A DNA stretch of 56,833 nt from Crenothrix polyspora (lineage in GTDB: Bacteria; Pseudomonadota; Gammaproteobacteria; Methylococcales; Methylomonadaceae). Shown here piece after piece: positions 41,492 to 54,175 of the stretch (the first letter of the stretch is position 1; each line of letters opens with the position of its first letter). The DNA lies in the NCBI GenBank assembly GCA_945902915.1, contig CAMDNJ010000002.1, positions 1 to 56,833 on the forward strand, written 5' to 3'. The notes under the pieces are model-generated. The model worked only from the letters and a program-made list of their open reading frames with translations, did not search any database and had not been told where the DNA came from. The translations under genes were made by a program, and so were the position numbers.

Positions 41492-43156
41492 TTAATGGCT
41501 AGTCGGAAATTTATCAACTAAACCCGTCACTCGTTGCACTCTTTGCCGTACTGTACTAGAAAAAACCGCCATATTAGTAACTAATTTAATGGTCTTTTTT
41601 GCTCTAGTGATAGCGGTATAGAGTAATTCTTTCGTTAATAGGGGACTGTTAGTCTCTGGTAATATAATTAAGACCTCTTCAAACTCTGAGCCTTGGCTTT
41701 TATGTATGGTCATGGCAAAAACCGTTTCGCAATGCGGAATGCGTGCAGGTAAGTATTTTCTAATGCTACCGTCAGCTCGTTGGAAAAACACCCGAAGTTG
41801 ATCTCCTTGTTCCTTATCGCGCAAACAAATACCGATGTCACCATTGTAAAGTTGTAAATCTGCATTATTTTGAGTGATCATAATGGGGCGACCGCAATAC
41901 CATAGTCCTGATATATGGATGAGTTTTTTGTTAGATAGCGATTGCTCTACAGCATGGGTAATATCGGCTACACTATTTTTGCCCAGCCTTATTGCGCATA
42001 AGGCTTGAAAGCGATTGAAGGCTTTGTAAATGTCACTAAATTCAGCGCCTTTGGATATCAAGTGTAAATAAGCTATTTGTTGCTGAGAGATATAGTCGAT
42101 TAAATCAGTTTCTAGTAGAGCAATATTTTTATTGCCGATCTGTAATAGCTGCCAAGCCTCGCGATCTTGTTGTTGGTTGATAGCAAGCGCAAAGTTTTTT
42201 ATATCTTCATCAAAACGATGTGATTTTTGTAGCTCCAATGTTTGCTGTGGCAAAGCCATGGTAAGATCTGCCAGCACAGATCCGGATTCAACAGAGGCTA
42301 ATTGATCTTTGTCGCCCAGAAGTATGAGTTTAGCTCCCGGTTTTAAGGCGTCTAATAATTTACTCATTAATGCCAAATCAACCATTGAGGCTTCATCAAC
42401 GACAACTAGGTCGTAAACTAAAGGTTGCTTGGCGTTATGGCGGAAATAGGGAGAGGGCGGCTTTGCTCCTAATAAGCGATGCAAGGTCATCACTATTTCT
42501 GGTATAGCTGATTTTATCTCAGCCGAGCAGGGTAATGCGGTTTTGTTAAAGCCTATGGATTCTTGTAAGCGCATAGCCGCTTTGCCAGTGGGTGCGGCTA
42601 GAGCAATGAGCAAGGGTTGATCTGATAGCTCTTGTAATAGGGCTAGGATTTTGACGACGGTGGTTGTTTTCCCAGTTCCTGGTCCTCCAGTAATCATGCA
42701 AAAATCTTGATTTACAGCCATGATCGCTGCCGCACGCTGCCAGTCAATGCTAGTTGAGATGCCGAAATATTTATCAAACAGAAAGCTAGAGTCGGGAGTA
42801 GTTTTCAGCTCAGGGCTAATGTTGCCTTGAGTCATTTTTGTTAGTTGCTGTGCTAAACGCTGCTCATAGAACCAATAACGATGCAGATACAAGCGATCTT
42901 GTTCAACAACTAGGGGAAGTATAGTCGTGGTGTCAGGGCTGTTAGTCAGCGTTAATGCTAATCCAGACTCTAAGATTAATGCTTGGGCTACTGCATCTAT
43001 TTGCATACAGCTGTGTCCTTGGCTTTGTTCAAATGATAATGACATCACAATATTTTCAAAGGCTAGTTTTTGCGAAGCGTCTAGTAATGAGCGTTCACTT
43101 AGAAAGCGGGCGAACACTCTATCAAGTTGGCTAAAGGTTTGTTTTTCGTAAATCAT
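41492..43156 (-). CDS. recD: Exodeoxyribonuclease V alpha subunit (RecD)
   Basis: The 5'-3' helicase subunit of RecBCD, used in double-strand break repair. The 554-residue protein has the Walker A motif GGPGTGKTTTVVK near 158-170, VVDEASMVDLALM (motif II), GDKDQLASVESGSVL (motif III) and the C-terminal UvrD-like block AMTIHKSQGSEFEEV and LLYTAITRAKKTI. It is slightly shorter than E. coli RecD (608). It stands alone here; recB lies 7.5 kb away on the other strand and recC is not in the window. The stop is 9 bp after the convergent ispB stop. Confidence 0.94.
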   Translation of the reverse strand: MIYEKQTFSQLDRVFARFLSERSLLDASQKLAFENIVMSLSFEQSQGHSCMQIDAVAQALILESGLALTLTNSPDTTTILPLVVEQDRLYLHRYWFYEQRLAQQLTKMTQGNISPELKTTPDSSFLFDKYFGISTSIDWQRAAAIMAVNQDFCMITGGPGTGKTTTVVKILALLQELSDQPLLIALAAPTGKAAMRLQESIGFNKTALPCSAEIKSAIPEIVMTLHRLLGAKPPSPYFRHNAKQPLVYDLVVVDEASMVDLALMSKLLDALKPGAKLILLGDKDQLASVESGSVLADLTMALPQQTLELQKSHRFDEDIKNFALAINQQQDREAWQLLQIGNKNIALLETDLIDYISQQQIAYLHLISKGAEFSDIYKAFNRFQALCAIRLGKNSVADITHAVEQSLSNKKLIHISGLWYCGRPIMITQNNADLQLYNGDIGICLRDKEQGDQLRVFFQRADGSIRKYLPARIPHCETVFAMTIHKSQGSEFEEVLIILPETNSPLLTKELLYTAITRAKKTIKLVTNMAVFSSTVRQRVQRVTGLVDKFPTSH

Positions 43157-45291: not shown

Positions 45292-45720
45292 CTAATCTAA
45301 CCATTCAATTATATGGTCTTCTAGGTCTAAGTTAGGTGATTCTTTAATGGCATAGCGATGAATGGATATACCGGCCTTTTTAACGCTAGTAGTACGACCC
45401 GATATCAAAGGATGCCAACTAGGTAGTTCTTGCTGGTCATTAACTAAGCGATAAGCGCAGGTGGCGGGTAACCAATGATATTGCGTAAAATCAAAACGCT
45501 TTAAATTCAAACATTCTGGTACTAATTGACTGCGTTCAGTATAGCGAGTGCAGCGACAGGTCTTAAGATCAATGAGTTTACAGGCCACATTGGTATAAGC
45601 AATTTCTCCGGTATCTTCATCTTCTAGTTTGTGTAAACAGCATTTTCCGCAACCATCACATAATGATTCCCATTCTTCGGTGCTCATCTCGCTTAGTTTT
45701 TTTGTTTTCCAAAAGCTCAT
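45292..45720 (-). CDS. YcgN-like cysteine-cluster protein (UPF0260)
   Basis: A 142-residue cytoplasmic protein of the YkgJ/YcgN family. It has a CxxCxxCC-type cysteine cluster, CDGCGKCCLHKLED near residues 21-34, with further cysteines in TNVACKLIDLKTCRCTRYTER, suggesting metal or Fe-S binding. WLPATCAYRL and WHPLISG are conserved blocks. The function is unproven. The stop TAG is directly followed by repeat B3. It is downstream of the CarH-like regulator on the same strand, 59 bp apart. Confidence 0.9.
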   Translation of the reverse strand: MSFWKTKKLSEMSTEEWESLCDGCGKCCLHKLEDEDTGEIAYTNVACKLIDLKTCRCTRYTERSQLVPECLNLKRFDFTQYHWLPATCAYRLVNDQQELPSWHPLISGRTTSVKKAGISIHRYAIKESPNLDLEDHIIEWLD

Positions 45721-45778: not shown

Positions 45779-46750
45779 TCAGCATGAGTTTTTCTGACTT
45801 TGCGCCAATTCTTTTAGTAGTTCTCTAAAGTGCTGGTAACTGTGAATAGTTAATACGCCAATTTCACTAAGTAGTCCTTGAAAATGCCAGGCAGCCCTAC
45901 CACCCACGATAAGAGCGACATCATTGCCGATTAATTTTTTGAGTCTTCGTAGTTCTTTATGTACAAGATGATCATCGCTAGCAAAGCTAAGGCTGAGAGT
46001 CAGAGCCTGTGCATCAACGTATTTAACCGCGATAGCAATTTCTTCAGCCGGTAAGTCGGCACCTAAATAAGTCACTTGCCAGCCGCTAAACTCTGCCATG
46101 ATGGCTGCTAACATGGCACCTAATTCATGAAGTTGACCCATGGGCGTAGTGACTACCATTCTGGGGGCGTTGGCTGGACTAGGGCTGTTGTTGCGTAAAA
46201 TATAGGTTAAGGAGCGAATAACGGATGAGGCCATGTGTTCATGTACAGGTCTTAGCTCGCCTTCTGTCCAGCTTTTACCAATTTGGCTCAATAAAGGCGT
46301 TAATAAATGCTCAATAAAGGTTTCAGTGCCTAATTCTACAATGGCATTTTCAAAATGTGTTTCTAGTAATTTCGCATCAAAAGCTAATACGGCTGCATAA
46401 CATTTTTCTATGTAATCTTCGGTAATATGAGACTGATTTCGCTTTGAATTGAGTGCCTGAGGCAAAGGCGTCGGGCTGGTATCACACTCTTCTTTCAGCA
46501 GCGTTTTTAGATCACTCAGCGAGAACAAAGCAATTAGGCTAATACTGTGGCCATTAGTTGTGGCTTTATGGAGTAGTTTTAAGCGAGCAATGTCTTGGTC
46601 ATTATAGACCCTGTGTCCACCGGCAGTGCGTGTGGGTGTAACGGCTTGATAGCGACGCTCCCAAGCTCTGACTAAGTCAGATTTAACGCCTGATCTTTTA
46701 GAAACTGTACTGATTAAATATTGTCCTAAGTCGTCATTAAATTCGGCCAT
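45779..46750 (-). CDS. MerR-type regulator with B12-binding domain (CarH/LitR-like)
   Basis: A 323-residue regulator with an N-terminal MerR helix-turn-helix (residues 10-80, VKSDLVRAWERRYQAVTPTRTAGGHRVY). The light-sensing helical bundle has the CarH motif W-x9-EH, with Trp161 and Glu171-His172 in WTEGELRPVHEH. A Rossmann B12-binding domain follows, with His208 in GQLHELGAM as the expected lower ligand and LGADLPAEEI. In CarH, adenosylcobalamin binding makes a DNA-bound tetramer that light breaks down. All residues needed for that appear present, so a B12-dependent photoreceptor is a reasonable inference. The target genes are unknown; carotenoid or photolyase genes are not adjacent. It is divergent from nadE. 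Confidence 0.85.
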   Translation of the reverse strand: MAEFNDDLGQYLISTVSKRSGVKSDLVRAWERRYQAVTPTRTAGGHRVYNDQDIARLKLLHKATTNGHSISLIALFSLSDLKTLLKEECDTSPTPLPQALNSKRNQSHITEDYIEKCYAAVLAFDAKLLETHFENAIVELGTETFIEHLLTPLLSQIGKSWTEGELRPVHEHMASSVIRSLTYILRNNSPSPANAPRMVVTTPMGQLHELGAMLAAIMAEFSGWQVTYLGADLPAEEIAIAVKYVDAQALTLSLSFASDDHLVHKELRRLKKLIGNDVALIVGGRAAWHFQGLLSEIGVLTIHSYQHFRELLKELAQSQKNSC

Positions 46751-46780
46751 AAGTTGCTTCTTTGCATCAAAACGAAAGGC

Positions 46781-46816
46781 TTTATACTAACATAAACTTA
46801 TACAAAACATTGACAA
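46781..46816. promoter_or_regulatory. Possible autoregulatory operator and promoter of the CarH-like gene
   Basis: On the minus strand a TATAAA (46786-46781) lies 30 bp before the regulator start. Directly upstream, plus-strand ACTTATACAAAACATTGACA carries two T-N-N-ACA elements 11 bp apart (ACA at 46802 and 46813), with another ACA at 46790. CarH-type repressors bind 11-bp direct repeats, so this is a candidate site. This is inference. Confidence 0.35.
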
Positions 46817-46999
46817 AAAAGCATCAATTAACCTAAGGTTTACGCTTAATCAGGTTAATTAATATGCTGGTAAATGCTTTAAAGCCAAAAAACTGCAGTC
46901 ATCGCCTTCATTTTAGAGCCTAATATAAACAGGGTTTAACAATATAAGTATAATGACGCTATCGCTTTCTTGCCTATTTAATGAGCACCTTGAATCTTT

Positions 47000-48610
47000 A
47001 TGTCCTTAAAAATTGCACTCGCACAAATTAATTTCTTAGTCGGTAATATTGCCGCTAATGTTGATCATATGGTTGAGGCCGCTATAGTTGCGAGGGATGA
47101 ATTACAGGCCGATATTATTGTTTTTCCAGAGTTGAGTGTTACAGGTTATCCGGCAGAAGACTTGCTGTTGCGTGCTGATTTTATTCGTGCCGCCAATAAT
47201 GCTATTTATCAGCTAGGTGATCGTGTTGCTGATATAGCTATGGTCGTGGGTTTTCCTGAACAGGAGGGTGAGGCGCTTTATAACAGTGCCGTGGTCTTGC
47301 ATCAAGGTGCAATATTAGCTTGTTATCGTAAACAGGCCTTGCCGAATTATGGCGTCTTTGATGAGCAACGTTATTTTACTGCAGGTCTCGAGCCGTGTGT
47401 ATTTGAGTTTAATGGCACTTTTATTGGCCTGACCATTTGCGAAGATGTTTGGAAAAGTGGCATTATTGAGGCCAGCAAGCAAACCGGTGCCGAGTTATTG
47501 TTGACCTTGAATGCTTCGCCGTTTAATTCAGGCAAGATTCATCAACGTGAAGCGATCATTTGTCAGCAAGTTAAAGCTGCAAAAATCCCTTTGGTTTATG
47601 TCAATCAAGTCGGCGGTCAAGATGAATTGATCTTTGATGGTGCCTCGTTTGTAGTCGATGCAGATGGCGAGATTGTCTTTCGCGCCGAAGAATTTAAAGA
47701 GCAAATTAGCGTTATCGAATTTGAAGGTAATACGCCACTCAAAGCAGACTGTGCGCCACTTTATGCTGAAATATCCAGTGAATATCAGGCTTTAGTGTTG
47801 GGTATTAAAGATTACGTGCGCAAAAATGGCTTTCAAGGCGCTTTATTAGGCTTATCCGGCGGGATTGATTCCGCATTGGTATTGGCTTTGGCGGTCGATG
47901 CACTGGGTGCTGATAAAGTCGAAGTCGTGCTTATGCCGTCTCGTTATACGCAAGACATGAGTAACGAAGATGCGTTATTACAGGCGAAAGCTTTAGGTGT
48001 AAAGCATCATGTTATTCCTATAGAACCTGCCGTGAGTGCTTTTACGGGTATGTTAGCCGAGGTGTTTAGTGGCGAGACTAAAGATACCACTGAAGAGAAT
48101 ATTCAGGCGCGTTGCCGAGGCGTAGTGTTAATGGCGCTGTCTAACAAGCAAGGTAAATTATTATTAACTACCGGTAATAAAAGTGAAATGAGTGTTGGCT
48201 ATGCCACGCTCTATGGCGACATGGCGGGTGGTTTTGCGCCGATTAAAGATGTGCCTAAGTTGCTAGTTTATCAATTGACTAAGTATCGCAATAGCCTGTC
48301 TGAGGTGATACCTGAGCGTGTGATTACCCGTCCGCCTTCTGCTGAACTAGCACCCGATCAAGTGGATGCTGACTCTTTACCGCCCTACGAGATTTTAGAT
48401 CCTATCCTAGAGCGTTATATAGAATTAGACCAATCGGCTGAAACGATTATCGCTGCTGGCTTTGCTACTGCGGATGTTAAAAGAGCGATAAGCTTAGTCG
48501 ATAGAAATGAATATAAGCGCCGGCAATCTCCGCCGGGTATTCGTATTACCGAAAAGGCTTTCGGTCGTGATCGACGTTATCCGATCACATCGGGCTATAA
48601 GGGTATTTGA
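47000..48610 (+). CDS. nadE: Glutamine-dependent NAD+ synthetase
   Basis: Amidates deamido-NAD to NAD using ammonia from glutamine. The 536-residue protein has an N-terminal nitrilase-type glutaminase (about 1-250), with Glu in FPELSVTGYP, the Lys in YRKQALPNYG, and the Cys in LTICEDVW. It is followed by the synthetase domain with the PP-loop GLSGGIDSAL near 277-286, TTGNKSEMSVGYATLYGD and KRRQSPPGIRIT. It is a full-length fused enzyme. It is divergent from the CarH-like gene. The ribosome-binding site is weak. Confidence 0.96.
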   Translation: MSLKIALAQINFLVGNIAANVDHMVEAAIVARDELQADIIVFPELSVTGYPAEDLLLRADFIRAANNAIYQLGDRVADIAMVVGFPEQEGEALYNSAVVLHQGAILACYRKQALPNYGVFDEQRYFTAGLEPCVFEFNGTFIGLTICEDVWKSGIIEASKQTGAELLLTLNASPFNSGKIHQREAIICQQVKAAKIPLVYVNQVGGQDELIFDGASFVVDADGEIVFRAEEFKEQISVIEFEGNTPLKADCAPLYAEISSEYQALVLGIKDYVRKNGFQGALLGLSGGIDSALVLALAVDALGADKVEVVLMPSRYTQDMSNEDALLQAKALGVKHHVIPIEPAVSAFTGMLAEVFSGETKDTTEENIQARCRGVVLMALSNKQGKLLLTTGNKSEMSVGYATLYGDMAGGFAPIKDVPKLLVYQLTKYRNSLSEVIPERVITRPPSAELAPDQVDADSLPPYEILDPILERYIELDQSAETIIAAGFATADVKRAISLVDRNEYKRRQSPPGIRITEKAFGRDRRYPITSGYKGI

Positions 48611-48638: not shown

Positions 48639-50339
48639 TTAATGACTTTTTAAGGATTCTAATAAACTAATAGCCGTTTTCTTTTCCGAGAACTCTAAGT
48701 CTGTGTTTACTAGAGGTTCCAAAATAGCAATGGCTTTGGCTATGTTGTTATTACTCACATAGGCTTCAGCTAAATGAAGTTGTATTTCATTTTGTTTAGG
48801 CGCTAAAGTTGCAGCTTTTTCAATTAGACTCAGACCTAAATTAGCTTGATTTTGTTTAAGCAGCATATGGCCATAAGTATCTAAAATAGCTGCGGATTCA
48901 GGTGCTTTATCGTAAGCTCTTTTCGCTAGATCTAGTGCTCTAGGGTCGTTTTGTTGGTCATAAAGTATGGCTAAGTTGTTTAAGGCGAGCACATTATCGC
49001 TTTGCTCGGTCAGCATGGCATCATAATGAATTTCGGCTTGTTTATAATCATTCTGCTGTTGGTAAATATTCGCCAATTTAAAGTGAATCGCTAAGTTTTT
49101 AGGTGCCTTTTCTAAAGCCTCATTCAATAGCTTAATGGCCTCGCTAGGTTTCTTTTGGATTATCAATAAGTCGCTTATGGTCAATAAAATTCTTTCATTC
49201 GGTTGACTTTTATAGGCGAGTTTATACTGCTCATGGGCTTTTTCATATTGCTTTTGCGCCAAATAAGTATCCCCTGCTAATAGCTTACCCAAGACTAACT
49301 TTGGAAACTGCTGGTCAATTTTGTGAGCCAGCGCCAAGGCTTCTGGATAATGTTGCTGTTTAATTAAAAAGGCTGTTTTAAAAATCAAGGCTTCTGGTTT
49401 GTCAGGGCTTATAAGTGCTGTTTCATCTAATAAGGCTAAGGTTTCTTTATCTTTATCGGGGTGTTCACTGAGTAGTCTGGCCAATAATAAGCGACTGCCT
49501 ATATCTTGTTTGTCTAGAGCAATGACCTTTTGCAGACTTTGTTCGGCTAATGGTTTTTGATTATTAAAAAGTTGCGCCTGGGCTAGCAGGTCAAGCGCCA
49601 TGGTGTTATTTGGATAGCGGCTAATTAAGTCTTCACATAGGCCTAAGATTTTTTCGGGTTGTTTTTGTAAGCCATAAAACTTTCCTAGGCCTTTAATAAC
49701 ATTTATTTCTTCTTTAACATCGTCCTTGGCTTTGTCTTTTGCCGTTAGCAATACTTTTTCTACTTCTGCAGTGTTTTTTTGCTTATAAGCAATATCGGCT
49801 AACATGAGGTAAGCATTAATGGTTTTATCATTGATAGAGATGGCTTTAGTAGCAAATTCATGAGCTTTATCTAATTGGTTATCATCTAAAGCCAATTTTG
49901 CTGAACCTAGCAGTGCTAGAATATTTTTGGGGTCTAGTCTAAGTACTTTATCGTAATTTTTTTGTGCGGCAATGAGGTCTTTTTTCAAGGTTTCCAACAA
50001 GGCTTGTAAATTATAATAATCAGCTTCATCTGGATGAGTTTTTAAATAATCGGCTATTTTGTTGCCAGCTTCTTCAAGTTTGTTTTGTCTCAGTTGATCG
50101 AGTATTTCTAAATAATGGGCTCTTTTGCTGGTTAATTCGGATTGTTGTAATGACTCGAGTATCGATTTAGCTTTGCCTTGCTCATCAACATTAGGGTTCA
50201 GTTGCTCAAGTGTACTGAAATTATTTTGTGAATGTTCTACGGGGTTATAAGTAGACGCCATCAATAGTGAACTAGTGCTTAGTAGTACTATAGCGAGAGC
50301 TGTGAGTTTTATTTTTGAAGGTTTATTTATAGGATTCAT
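48639..50339 (-). CDS. Exported tetratricopeptide-repeat protein
   Basis: A 566-residue protein with a signal peptide (residues 1-28, KLTALAIVLLSTSSLLMA). About twelve tetratricopeptide repeats follow, recognisable by spaced A-x-x-x-Y/L and P-x-x-x-x-A patterns such as LDPKNILALLGSAKLAL and APKNLAIHFKLANIYQQ. It probably acts in the periplasm as a scaffold. It resembles the long TPR proteins of exopolysaccharide and exosortase-associated loci, but no partner gene is nearby, so that role is a guess. A 17-base palindrome lies 40 bp upstream of the ATG. Confidence 0.8.
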   Translation of the reverse strand: MNPINKPSKIKLTALAIVLLSTSSLLMASTYNPVEHSQNNFSTLEQLNPNVDEQGKAKSILESLQQSELTSKRAHYLEILDQLRQNKLEEAGNKIADYLKTHPDEADYYNLQALLETLKKDLIAAQKNYDKVLRLDPKNILALLGSAKLALDDNQLDKAHEFATKAISINDKTINAYLMLADIAYKQKNTAEVEKVLLTAKDKAKDDVKEEINVIKGLGKFYGLQKQPEKILGLCEDLISRYPNNTMALDLLAQAQLFNNQKPLAEQSLQKVIALDKQDIGSRLLLARLLSEHPDKDKETLALLDETALISPDKPEALIFKTAFLIKQQHYPEALALAHKIDQQFPKLVLGKLLAGDTYLAQKQYEKAHEQYKLAYKSQPNERILLTISDLLIIQKKPSEAIKLLNEALEKAPKNLAIHFKLANIYQQQNDYKQAEIHYDAMLTEQSDNVLALNNLAILYDQQNDPRALDLAKRAYDKAPESAAILDTYGHMLLKQNQANLGLSLIEKAATLAPKQNEIQLHLAEAYVSNNNIAKAIAILEPLVNTDLEFSEKKTAISLLESLKSH

Positions 50340-50644: not shown

Positions 50645-53600
50645 TTGTTAAAAACTAATTATTTTGAGTCAGCTACATCACCTTTACTTAAAGGCATTAA
50701 TCTTATAGAAGCCAGTGCCGGAACGGGGAAGACTTATGCTATCGCTATGTTGGTGCTGCGCTTTGTCGTTGAGCACGGTTTCACCATAGATCAGCTATTA
50801 GTGGTCACCTTCACCAAAGCCGCAACCGAAGAACTTAAAGACCGAGTTCGAGCAAGGCTTGCCGAAGCCAAAAGAGCAGTCGACGGCCACGTAGATCATC
50901 AAAATGCCGATGTGCAAACCTGGTTAGAGTCGCTGCAGATAGCCAAAGAAGTTAAAAAGCAACGCTTGGTTGCGGCCTTATTAGATTTAGATCGATCTGG
51001 TATTTTTACCATTCATGGTTTTTGTCAGCGCGTTTTACGCGAACATGCCTTAGAAAGCGGGCAGTTATTTGATGCGGAATTGACCGATGATTTAGCGGCC
51101 ATTAAACAAGCCTGCGCTGATGATTTCTGGCGACGGCAGATTTATACACGCTCATTGACGGAGGTCGCCTTATTAACCGCAACTTATAAAACCCCAAAGC
51201 AGTTACTGGACAGTGTTAATTTTATTGCTGATCAGCATAAGGTTTATCCTGAGCTTGATGATTTAGATGCCCTGTTAAGTGCTACGCAAGTAACGGCAAC
51301 TAAGGCTAAAGATCAGTTGGATGCTAACGCACTAGCCTTAAGGGCCGGTTTTGAGGCACAGACTTTTAAAACGAGTTATAGCGATGCTTTCGAACTGAAC
51401 CTCGCGTCATTAAGTGCTTGGCTGACTAAGGACAGCGTACAACTTCCCAGTAGCGAAGCTCTAGCCTTATTCACTGAGCAAGGGCTGATAGAGGCTTTAA
51501 ATGGCCACAAATTCAGAACCAATAAAGCCCAGAGCAGCGAACAACGTAAAGCCGAGTATTTGGCAACCTTAGCGATTGATACGGCTGTATTTGATACGCT
51601 GTCTAAGGCAATATCTCAAGTGAGCTTAGTGTTGCGTAGAATGCTGTTAGAAACTCTGCGTGTGGAATTGGATAAGCGCTTACAGCAATTGAATGTCATG
51701 TCTTTTGATAATCTGATTAGCCGATTAGCAGAGGCTTTAGAAGACGATAAGCTGAGTGGTGGTGATTTGATTGTTGAGTTACGCCAGCGCTTTGCCGTGG
51801 CCTTAATTGATGAGTTTCAAGATACCGATAACAGTCAGTGGTCTATTTTTTCTGCCTTGTTTGCGGTTTCTAGTCATTATTTATATCTGATCGGTGATCC
51901 TAAACAAGCCATTTATAAATTTCGGGGTGCCGATATTTATTCTTATCTGTCTGCACAGCAGCAGGCAGAGCATCGCTATACCTTGGCTCAAAACTGGCGC
52001 TCACATCCACAGTTAGTGGCAGGGGTAAATCGCTTGTTTCAACGAGAGCGCGCGTTTTTACTGGCGGATTTAAACTTTAATGACGTTCAGGCGGCTAAGA
52101 CTTCAAAAGATGGCGAGTTACAACAAAATGGCCAGACGCTTGCGCCTATGATGCTTTGGCAGTTAGCAAAAAGTGACACTAAAGCAGGTTATTGGTCTGC
52201 GGGTAAAGCCGCAGAGCAGATTAGTGTTGCCGTCATTAATGAAGTAGTCGCTTTATTAGCCGATGGTTATTGTTTGCAACCTACTAATCGGCCGTTGCTC
52301 GCTAAAGATATCGCCATTTTGGTAAGAACCAATGCCCAAGCTCGAGACTATCAAGCGGCTTTGCGTGCGGCAGGTGTGCCTTCGGTATTGAATAATACCG
52401 AATCAGTTTTTACAGCACAGGAAGCTTCCGATTTATATATCTTATTACAGGCTGTCGCAAATCCTGGAGATAGCGGTTTGCTTAAGCAAGCCTTGACCTT
52501 AAATTGGTTTGCTCTTGATGGCGCTGCGCTTTATCAAGTCATTAATGATGAACTAGCCTTAGATGCTTGGTTATTTCGGTTTGCCGCTTATTATCAGCTT
52601 TGGCAAAAAGCGGGGCTCATGGCCATGATGCAGCAGTTGCTAGCACAAGAAGCGATTAGGCCTAAGCTTGCTAGGGGTTCACTGGCTGAAAGACGCTTGA
52701 CCAATATCCATCAGCTAATTGAGTTACTACAGCAAGCAGCTGTCGATGAACATTTAGGGATCAATAAAACCTTAGATTGGTTACGAACGGCTATGACGCA
52801 AGCCAGTAGTTCAGAAGCCCAGCAGTTACGCTTAGAGAGTGATGAAGATGCAGTGAAGATTGTCACCATGCATCGCTCTAAGGGCTTGGAGTATTCCGTG
52901 GTGTTCTGTCCTTGTTTATGGCAGCGTAGCGATCGCTTAAAGACTGAGCAAAGCTTAATCCAATGTCATGTTACTGGGCAGATGATGGTCGATTTGGGTT
53001 CAGAGGCTTTTGAACAGCATCGAGCGCTAGCCTTGGAAGAAGAGCTGGCGGAAGATTGCCGCATGTTTTATGTCGCGGTCACGCGTGCTAAATATCGTTG
53101 CTATGTGGTTTGGGCTGATCAGCGTTCTGAAAATCATGCAAATGAGTCTGCTATGGCTTGGTTATTAGAGCTAGCAGAGCACGATTTCGATGGCCAGCAA
53201 GGGCTATTACAAGGCTTGGTTGACGCTAAGCCCTTAAGCTTTGCTTATCAATGTTTAGAGACAACGGCTGTGCCGATTAGAGTCTGGCAGCATGACTTGG
53301 CGGCTACGCTGGCGCTTGTTGCTAGAGAGCGTAAGCGCTCTTTATACACCCGTTGGCAAATGAGTAGTTATACGGCCTTATCGGCTTTAAGTCAGTACGA
53401 TGCGCCTGAATGGCCTGAAGACAAGGCTAGAGAGCCACAAGTAATTGCTGCAGAACCTGAAGCTATCTTGGCCAATGCCGCGTTATCCTTGCCCAGAGGC
53501 ACGGTAACAGGCAATGTGGTTCATGACTTGTTAGAAAACTGTAGCTTTAGTGATTTGGCAGGGCTTAAGGATATTTCCGTAGCACAGGACAAAGCCTGTC

Positions 53601-54175
53601 AACGCTATGGCTTAAGCTTAGAGCAACCCGAGCAATTAGCCTTGTTGTTACAAGCCGTGGTGACTACACCCTTATCTGAGCAAGATCGTTCTTTTTGTTT
53701 AATGAACTTGGATGCCAATAAGTGCTTGAAGGAAATGCCTTTTTATTTAGCTATGCAAACGATGGATGTCAGTCAAATTAATGTGATATTAAAAGATACT
53801 GCCGTTTATCAAAGCTTAGACAGTAAAGTCATGTGTGGCTATTTAACCGGCTTTATCGATCTTATTTGTGAGCATCAAGGCCGCTATTATTTAATGGATT
53901 ACAAAACCACTAGCTTGCCAGATTATCAGCCTGAACATTTGGCTCAGGCCATGTATACGCACAATTATGGTTTGCAATATTGGCTATACACGGTAGTTTT
54001 GCATAGATATTTACAACAGCGTGTGCCTGATTATGACTATGAACGTCATTTCGGCGGCGTGCGTTATTTATTTGTGCGAGGTATGCATCCTGAGCACGCC
54101 ATGAGTGGGGTTTATCAAGATAGGCCTGCTATTGCTAAGGTTAAGGCTTTGGCTTCCTTGTTTGCGGAAATTTAG
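50645..54175 (+). CDS. recB: Exodeoxyribonuclease V beta subunit (RecB)
   Basis: 3'-5' helicase and nuclease subunit of RecBCD for double-strand break processing. The 1176-residue protein matches E. coli RecB (1180). Walker A is EASAGTGKTYAIA (22-34), motif Ia VTFTKAATEELKDRV, motif II ALIDEFQDTDNSQW, motif III LIGDPKQAIYKFRGAD, and motif VI FYVAVTRAK. The C-terminal RecB nuclease has TGFIDLIC and YYLMDYKT, with the catalytic Asp/Asp/Lys in order. I accept TTG 50645 as start because the family begins there and no ATG is in frame nearby. recC is not adjacent and recD is 7.5 kb away, so the subunit genes are split. Confidence 0.95.
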   Translation: MLKTNYFESATSPLLKGINLIEASAGTGKTYAIAMLVLRFVVEHGFTIDQLLVVTFTKAATEELKDRVRARLAEAKRAVDGHVDHQNADVQTWLESLQIAKEVKKQRLVAALLDLDRSGIFTIHGFCQRVLREHALESGQLFDAELTDDLAAIKQACADDFWRRQIYTRSLTEVALLTATYKTPKQLLDSVNFIADQHKVYPELDDLDALLSATQVTATKAKDQLDANALALRAGFEAQTFKTSYSDAFELNLASLSAWLTKDSVQLPSSEALALFTEQGLIEALNGHKFRTNKAQSSEQRKAEYLATLAIDTAVFDTLSKAISQVSLVLRRMLLETLRVELDKRLQQLNVMSFDNLISRLAEALEDDKLSGGDLIVELRQRFAVALIDEFQDTDNSQWSIFSALFAVSSHYLYLIGDPKQAIYKFRGADIYSYLSAQQQAEHRYTLAQNWRSHPQLVAGVNRLFQRERAFLLADLNFNDVQAAKTSKDGELQQNGQTLAPMMLWQLAKSDTKAGYWSAGKAAEQISVAVINEVVALLADGYCLQPTNRPLLAKDIAILVRTNAQARDYQAALRAAGVPSVLNNTESVFTAQEASDLYILLQAVANPGDSGLLKQALTLNWFALDGAALYQVINDELALDAWLFRFAAYYQLWQKAGLMAMMQQLLAQEAIRPKLARGSLAERRLTNIHQLIELLQQAAVDEHLGINKTLDWLRTAMTQASSSEAQQLRLESDEDAVKIVTMHRSKGLEYSVVFCPCLWQRSDRLKTEQSLIQCHVTGQMMVDLGSEAFEQHRALALEEELAEDCRMFYVAVTRAKYRCYVVWADQRSENHANESAMAWLLELAEHDFDGQQGLLQGLVDAKPLSFAYQCLETTAVPIRVWQHDLAATLALVARERKRSLYTRWQMSSYTALSALSQYDAPEWPEDKAREPQVIAAEPEAILANAALSLPRGTVTGNVVHDLLENCSFSDLAGLKDISVAQDKACQRYGLSLEQPEQLALLLQAVVTTPLSEQDRSFCLMNLDANKCLKEMPFYLAMQTMDVSQINVILKDTAVYQSLDSKVMCGYLTGFIDLICEHQGRYYLMDYKTTSLPDYQPEHLAQAMYTHNYGLQYWLYTVVLHRYLQQRVPDYDYERHFGGVRYLFVRGMHPEHAMSGVYQDRPAIAKVKALASLFAEI

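Follow-up and report, generated by a model that had tools for sequence, protein, structure and literature searches.

A likely CarH-type B12 regulator in a methanotroph genome, with a candidate operator that recurs before oxidoreductase and sigma factor genes

The window, meaning the whole stretch of DNA that was analysed, is the 56.8-kb contig C2 of a genome of 2.7 Mb in 209 contigs. It contains a reverse-strand gene for a protein of 323 residues, assigned from its open reading frame, Pfam domains, and matches of sequence and fold. A ycgN-family gene lies directly behind this gene, and nadE is its divergent neighbor. The features of the locus are listed below; all three Pfam domains scored above their cut-offs.

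45779..46750, reverse strand: carH-like gene, 323 aa, ATG start
46529..46720, reverse strand: MerR_1 DNA-binding domain (PF13411), residues 11-74, 52.3 bits
46196..46411, reverse strand: B12-binding_2 four-helix cap (PF02607), residues 114-185, 44.8 bits
46235..46270, reverse strand: W161-x9-E171H172 motif (W161TEGELRPVHE171H172), the adenosyl cap in CarH, from motif reading
45893..46162, reverse strand: Rossmann B12-binding domain (PF02310), residues 197-286, containing H208, 40.9 bits
46127..46129, reverse strand: H208, the expected lower axial cobalamin ligand, in G205QLH208ELG, from motif reading and alignment
45292..45720, reverse strand: ycgN-family gene (CxxCxxCC), 204 bits against NF003501 (cut-off 167)
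47000..48610, forward strand: nadE, 772 bits against NF010588

The domain order of the protein, a MerR-type helix-turn-helix followed by a four-helix B12-binding_2 domain (which contains W161, H170, E171 and H172) and a Rossmann B12-binding domain, is that of CarH and class I LitR. Its closest solved relatives by sequence are the Thermus CarH/LitR proteins (~5e-30). An AlphaFold2 model (pLDDT 83.3) returned Thermus CarH in the top rows of a Foldseek search, and VIA-align gave a Chloracidobacterium MerR B12 domain, photocobilins and CarH domains at Z scores of 18-21 over ~200 residues. Photocobilins and the AppA SCHIC domain were considered as kin and set aside, their high Z in VIA-align being read as a common fold only. 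The nearest named relatives of the gene come from Methylococcales/Methylococcaceae MAGs (81-87% identity), and further ones from Methylobacter, Methyloglobulus, Methylovulum and other records; on this basis the organism is taken for a Methylobacter-like methanotroph. A reading made from the sequence alone had proposed a CarH-like regulator, and domains, motifs and predicted fold agree in making this the likely identity.

The same sequence-only reading had described the W-x9-EH motif and His208 as intact and spaced as in CarH. This was borne out, as W161-x9-E171H172 and H208 are present with a distance of 47 residues from the tryptophan to the ligand histidine, compared with 46 in Thermus CarH numbering (Trp131 and His177; PMC10442372). 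The light signature listed in PMC11796333 (GxxW, EH, GxxH, GxxxP) is complete, with G158xxW161, E171H172, G205xxH208 and G230xxxP234. Three further points go beyond the earlier reading: deviations from the strict motif, the residue next to W161, and relatives that have lost the tryptophan. CarH homologs have been defined by Wx9EH together with ExHx2Gx41SxV/Tx22-27GG (PMC8156234). The spacing of the second motif is kept, with H208, G211, S253 and G283G284 at the published distances, but two of its residues differ: Q206 stands two residues before H208, where the published motif has Glu, and S255 occupies the V/T position. In Thermus CarH, His132, which lies beside the Trp, becomes the light-state ligand (PMC10442372). 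The equivalent residue is T162 in the window protein and V in a relative from genome G045, and thus the photocycle residue known from Thermus is absent. H170, beside E171, is invariant across an alignment of 27 proteins, our selection from 68 loci; that it substitutes for His132 as light-state ligand is speculation. Against the NCBIfam CarH equivalog NF052513 the protein scored 132.7 bits, compared with a curated cut-off of 400. Since this cut-off is missed, Q206 and S255 deviate, and a His132 equivalent is absent, we file the protein as a CarH-type variant and not as a strict member.

Both Wx9EH and the ligand histidine are intact in all 30 orthologs read from the genus. Among the 68 loci from named records, 63 have an intact Wx9EH, three lack the tryptophan, and in two the gene is truncated by a contig end. 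The Trp-less relatives are L087, L092 and L105. L092 has in addition lost the ligand histidine, which is now Tyr, and the operator described below is kept in L092 and L105, the two with upstream DNA. Such proteins may be blind to B12, and all three are possible B12-independent derivatives. The window protein itself could repress without B12, in the manner of Myxococcus CarA or class II LitR, with some other light sensor or an antirepressor releasing it. The absence of W161 from L087, L092 and L105, the absence of H208 from L092, the retention of the operator in L092 and L105, and cluster 34, a protein cluster that includes a BLUF-domain member and occurs close to carH in four of the named-record loci, are consistent with this; the motif that is intact in the window protein and in those 63 loci argues against it, and we regard it as very improbable.

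CarH operators have been described as three or four tandem 11-bp nnnnTnnACAn repeats overlapping the -35 or -10 (PMC9304148). On the strand of the gene, the sequence upstream of the start codon reads TTTTGTCAATG-TTTTGTATAAG-TTTATGTTAGT at 46786-46818, and is divided as follows.

46808..46818, reverse strand: direct repeat DR1, TTTTGTCAATG (TnnACA on the other strand)
46797..46807, reverse strand: direct repeat DR2, TTTTGTATAAG (TnnACA on the other strand)
46786..46796, reverse strand: degenerate third repeat, TTTATGTTAGT, overlapping the extended -10
46784..46792, reverse strand: extended -10-like TGtTAGTAT in the carH promoter, inferred from how it is conserved among 20 selected sites

The forward-strand TnnACA elements at 46799 and 46810 are 11 bp apart, as had been noticed from the sequence, and form the only such pair in the window when both strands are checked (183 and 265 single elements on the two strands; 1 and 0 pairs at 11 bp). 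It is the degenerate third repeat, and not this pair as had been supposed, that overlaps the -10, and the end coordinate of 46816 given earlier has to be corrected, since it loses two bases of the first repeat in an operator that reaches 46818.

Conservation supports the assignment of a candidate operator, which the earlier reading had also proposed. A putative site of the published CarH type, with two intact 11-bp repeats and a degenerate one over the promoter, was found upstream of carH in 30 of 30 genus loci read, with a mean column identity of 0.93 in the two intact repeats versus 0.51 in the preceding 60 bases. When up to 3 mismatches were allowed, the carH operator was located in 29 of the 35 genus genomes, at one place in each, and the reversed pattern in none; G020 is among the 29, yet lacks carH. 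Over 20 sites from several genera (our selection from the 68 loci), TTGTC-A, TTGTA-A and the TG-TA---T of the -10 are invariant, and the distance from the repeats to the -10 varies by at most 3 bases. All 66 named-record loci with upstream DNA score at least 10 of 12 core positions, 50 of them scoring 12. The weak carH sites gave leave-one-out matrix scores of 8.9 (L098), 6.6 (L104) and 0.6 (L111, Methylovulum miyakonense). An Rfam scan of the window produced no match at gathering level.

The position of such a regulator next to nadE and a ycgN-like gene had been considered unexpected. The neighborhood is in fact recurrent, as nadE adjoins carH divergently in 23 of 30 genus loci and ycgN lies behind it in 28 of 30, but the likely targets are elsewhere in the genome, where the same operator is found. 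Whereas ycgN is probably co-transcribed with carH, the other neighbors are not likely to be targets. nadE was examined as a target, or as the cause of the position of carH, and was dropped: it occurs (as cluster 3) in only 26 of the 68 named-record loci, with flanks of up to 6 kb.

Several other genes were observed around carH. In the window, a RecD-like gene (41492-43156, reverse strand; RecD_N above cut-off) and a RecB-like gene (50645-54175, forward strand; UvrD helicase and PD-(D/E)XK nuclease) flank the carH-nadE stretch on opposite strands, apart rather than together. A TPR protein encoded at 48639-50339 (reverse strand) scored 283.6 bits, just under the XrtA/PEP-CTERM PrsT cut-off of 312.2. 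Among relatives, a BLUF-PsiE protein is encoded near carH at L130:4967-5830, where the domain was read, and cluster 34, to which it belongs, also occurs in L105, L119 and L121. A TudS-DUF1722 (RudS-type) gene lies upstream of carH at L107:3980-4909, its domains being read in L107, and the corresponding cluster 19 is also present in L092, L093, L105, L121 and L127. RudS-type genes have been reported within light-responsive operons (PMC11417400).

A generic three-repeat pattern, searched genus-wide with up to one mismatch, occurred at 33 places, compared with 6 for a reversed-pattern control. Two of the 33 precede carH, 22 (21 sites) are of a reductase/membrane-protein type, 5 are of a sigma type, and 4 are other; one sigma-type place, G014:C104, was scored (25.5) with its neighboring genes left unread. 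Of 15 regions examined from an 18-mer search, 5 were of known types and 10 lay at unrelated genes. A profile search gave 40 regions among the matches listed, 5 of which (L249, L250, L254, L258 and L259) were without recurrent neighbors. The reductase-type site precedes genes for a TIGR01777 oxidoreductase (365 bits versus a cut-off of 207) and a TIGR02450 Trp-rich protein, and in many genus genomes it also faces genes for a 149-aa membrane protein of no known family and a lipocalin (Lipocalin_2, 148 bits). The sigma-type site precedes a gene for an RpoD-like sigma factor, with sigma70 regions 2, 3 and 4 and a long N-terminal part, which is followed by a gene for an FtsH-type protease. Both types are present in the genome of the window.

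C32:715-742: reductase-type site, with the reductase gene at 783-1685
C13:12758-12783: sigma-type site, with the sigma gene from C13:12888

From the C32 site towards the contig start there is no open reading frame of at least 60 aa, and only the reductase side is seen in this genome.

The repeats of the reductase and sigma promoters extend into a TTGACA that is conserved, an arrangement that fits the expectation for repression. A TAT--TTTGACA flank is common to these two types and absent at the carH site. With loci picked by profile, among the matches listed, the reductase/membrane-protein type is found in 31 of 35 genus genomes and the sigma type in 30 of 35. Because a score of 10 of 12 can be reached by chance (in 14 of 60 shuffles for one promoter, and in 43-60 of 60 for three promoters with a best score of 8 or 9), these counts rest on the prior choice of loci by the profile. 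Sites of each of the three types went into the training of the profile, R1, whose E-values are therefore not independent.

A matrix was constructed from carH operators alone (48 distinct operators, from named-record loci only) and scored over the 400 bp upstream of the reductase and sigma genes. Two backgrounds were used: 560 windows of contig C2, with a maximum of 6.3, and 3165 windows from the carH neighborhoods of relatives, with a 99% mark of 7.8 and a maximum of 15.7; the latter set includes some likely real sites. In the genome of the window the reductase promoter scored 24.3, and the sigma promoter 14.8, which is under the maximum of the wider background. A usable gene was available in 17 (reductase) and 21 (sigma) of 24 carH-bearing outgroup genomes, G035 and G077 being the same and counted once. 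Reductase sites exceeded 7.8 in 11 of 17 and 15.7 in 6 of 17, with scores below 7.8 in G061, G065, G068, G072, G079 and G081. Sigma sites exceeded 7.8 in 18 of 21 and 15.7 in 16 of 21, falling below 7.8 in G068, G077 and G082. In relatives without CarH of the window's type, none of 5 reductase promoters scored above 7.8.

Four background windows scored highest, the next being 12.5, and all are on the reverse strand. L107:1847 and L093:1852 lie between photolyase and membrane-protein genes, a few kb from carH, in Methyloglobulus-like loci, and the L107 membrane protein is 44% identical to the 149-aa protein. L127:39 is a repeat pair at a contig end, on the far side of a photolyase-like gene, again in a Methyloglobulus-like locus. 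L119:9682, in Methylobacter sp. BlB1, is a full repeat pair that precedes an FtsH gene by ~0.7 kb; no match for the sigma factor was found in that genome. Photolyase as a direct target within the genus was considered separately and rejected: all 44 PF00875 places, in 31 of 35 genomes, are without a site (best score 6.8, below the 7.8 mark). With an earlier matrix, made from 16 typed sites, one of 30 photolyase places (L141) scored as high as 13.2, compared with 18-31.5 for those 16.

The genes at these sites bear on what the protein might sense. It could respond to adenosylcobalamin and not to light, repressing when B12 is plentiful, with light having no role in the habitat. B12-using metabolism is likely in this organism, as a B12-binding match above the Pfam cut-off lies in a 1241-aa frame, taken for MetH by its size, and a BtuR/CobA-type adenosyltransferase is encoded (E 4.8e-62); T162 in place of the Thermus light-state ligand His132 would also be in keeping with such a sensor. 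The sites, however, precede reductase and sigma/FtsH genes and no recognised B12-metabolism genes, and in some relatives they stand beside photolyase. In addition, the adenosyl-capping Wx9EH is intact in the window protein, and this motif is absent from MetH according to PMC8156234. We consider a sensor of this kind unlikely.

The sigma factor and carH tend to occur together. The sigma factor (E < 1e-90) was found in 21 of the 24 carH-bearing outgroup genomes (not in G062 or G079, and broken in G072), and in none of 8 family- and order-level relatives without carH of the window's type, where best matches near 1e-50 are taken for RpoD. FtsH adjoins the sigma factor in 21 of 22 loci. carH was not found in 4 of the 35 genus genomes (G009, G012, G020 and G023), and G012 and G023 have good reductase-type and sigma-type sites despite its absence. 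The explanation may be a recent loss of carH, gaps in these MAGs, or a further protein that acts at the sites as well. In G020, a single contig contains no carH between nadE and ycgN (L192, G020:C147:1551-6000), and the carH operator-promoter stands ~50 bp before ycgN. In G072 (Candidatus Methylobacter favarea), the receptor lacks the Trp, there is no reductase site, and the carH and sigma sites are kept; the sigma gene itself (L328, G072:C43) is broken and its repeat operator is intact.

These genomes raise the question of whether one protein acts at all of the sites. A different regulator with a similar site might run the reductase and sigma promoters, leaving CarH to run only itself and ycgN. 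Such a division could account for the good sites in G012 and G023, and for the TAT--TTTGACA flank that the reductase and sigma sites share and the carH site lacks. Three observations speak against it: both promoters are picked out by a matrix for which carH operators were the sole training set, the sigma factor tracks carH across genomes, and a search of the genome with the whole protein returned one match, the protein itself, with only two B12-binding matches in all. We judge a second regulator to be rather unlikely.

Clustered arrangements were found in relatives. Genome G045 encodes a CarH relative (L325:5890-6804), 28% identical to the window protein, with Wx9EH and the ligand histidine; Pfam recognizes its helix-turn-helix and four-helix domains, the Rossmann domain falling below threshold. 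The gene is divergent from one for an RpoD-like sigma factor, a repeat pair (L325:5868-5889) lies directly before its start, and the sigma factor gene is followed by amine-oxidase, DUF1365 and cyclopropane-synthase-type genes (Pfam). In L331, a MerR gene without Wx9EH lies among photolyase, lipocalin and reductase genes, and in L326 another MerR gene without Wx9EH adjoins FtsH. Taken together, these arrangements suggest that the lineage of the window scattered a once clustered light regulon.

We propose, at a probability of about two in three, that the window protein is a CarH/LitR-type dark, AdoCbl-dependent repressor of its own gene, of ycgN and of dispersed reductase and sigma/FtsH promoters, and that it governs a photo-oxidative stress programme; the proposal is built on sequence (domains, motifs, a conserved operator, its recurrence at three promoters of this genome, co-occurrence with the sigma factor, and the encoded adenosyltransferase) and on analogy with characterized systems. 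In the dark, AdoCbl would be held between the four-helix and Rossmann subdomains, with W161, E171 and H172 above and H208 below, and the loaded protein would oligomerise and occupy the tandem 11-bp repeats over the promoter. UV to green light would then break the Co-C bond, the oligomer would dissociate and the promoter would open. carH and the co-directional ycgN would be controlled through 46786-46818, and at least two distant promoters of the same genome would be subject to the same control, that of the reductase and TIGR02450 genes (C32) and that of the sigma factor and FtsH-type protease genes (C13). The expected outcome is a programme against photo-oxidative stress whose second tier is a dedicated sigma factor, and which the sigma factor and FtsH would presumably carry out. 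The recurrence of the operator before an oxidoreductase gene and before the sigma factor and FtsH suggests a light-response programme in methanotrophs.

A broader proposal, which we advance tentatively and at somewhat less than even odds, is that methane-oxidising Methylococcales have a dispersed CarH regulon in which an RpoD-like sigma factor specific to the lineage, together with FtsH, is under the direct control of a B12 photoreceptor. Light and B12 would together set second-tier transcription, and the light-state histidine would differ from that of Thermus CarH, possibly being H170. If this holds, the aerobic methane consumers of lakes and wetlands would have a stress programme gated by light and B12 supply together, and light effects on methanotrophs would gain a testable basis. 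The sequence evidence connects CarH with FtsH and with a sigma factor outside the ECF group, and the natural variants (Trp lost, ligand histidine lost, carH lost) offer ready-made comparisons. Our search covered the open literature, subscription papers excluded, and listed no paper whose title or abstract showed it to concern CarH in methanotrophs; in the accessible part of a 2025 Methylobacter genome survey (PMC12810054), the terms CarH, photolyase, cobalamin and B12 do not occur.

Thermus thermophilus CarH/LitR (PDB 5C8D, 5C8E, 5C8F and 3WHP) and the window protein have in common the domain order, Wx9EH, the ligand histidine and GxxxP, with ~30% identity over the B12 domains, and both have tandem 11-bp repeats over the promoter. 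The window protein differs in having Q for E two residues before the ligand histidine, and in having T162, and hence no histidine, beside the Trp, with the invariant H170 beside E171. The Thermus gene adjoins a phytoene/squalene synthase gene, whereas the window gene has no such neighbor. In Streptomyces coelicolor, as in the system described here, a LitR/CarH regulator is linked to a sigma factor. The Streptomyces factor is reportedly of the ECF type and serves carotenoid genes, whereas that of the window's lineage is RpoD-like, with regions 2-4 and a long N-terminal part, and is followed by FtsH. A light regulon with protective genes in a gammaproteobacterium would resemble those of Pseudomonas class II LitR (PplR/PmlR), which include protective genes, among them one for a short-chain dehydrogenase (PMC9758184). 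Of the B12 domains, class II LitR has kept the four-helix part alone (PMC9758184); the window protein, in contrast, has both B12 subdomains, PF02310 being present, and falls outside that class. The G045 relative shares Wx9EH and the ligand histidine with the window protein and has an adjacent, divergent sigma gene and a repeat pair, but its amine-oxidase, DUF1365 and cyclopropane-synthase-type genes stand behind the sigma gene, whereas in the lineage of the window the likely targets are dispersed.
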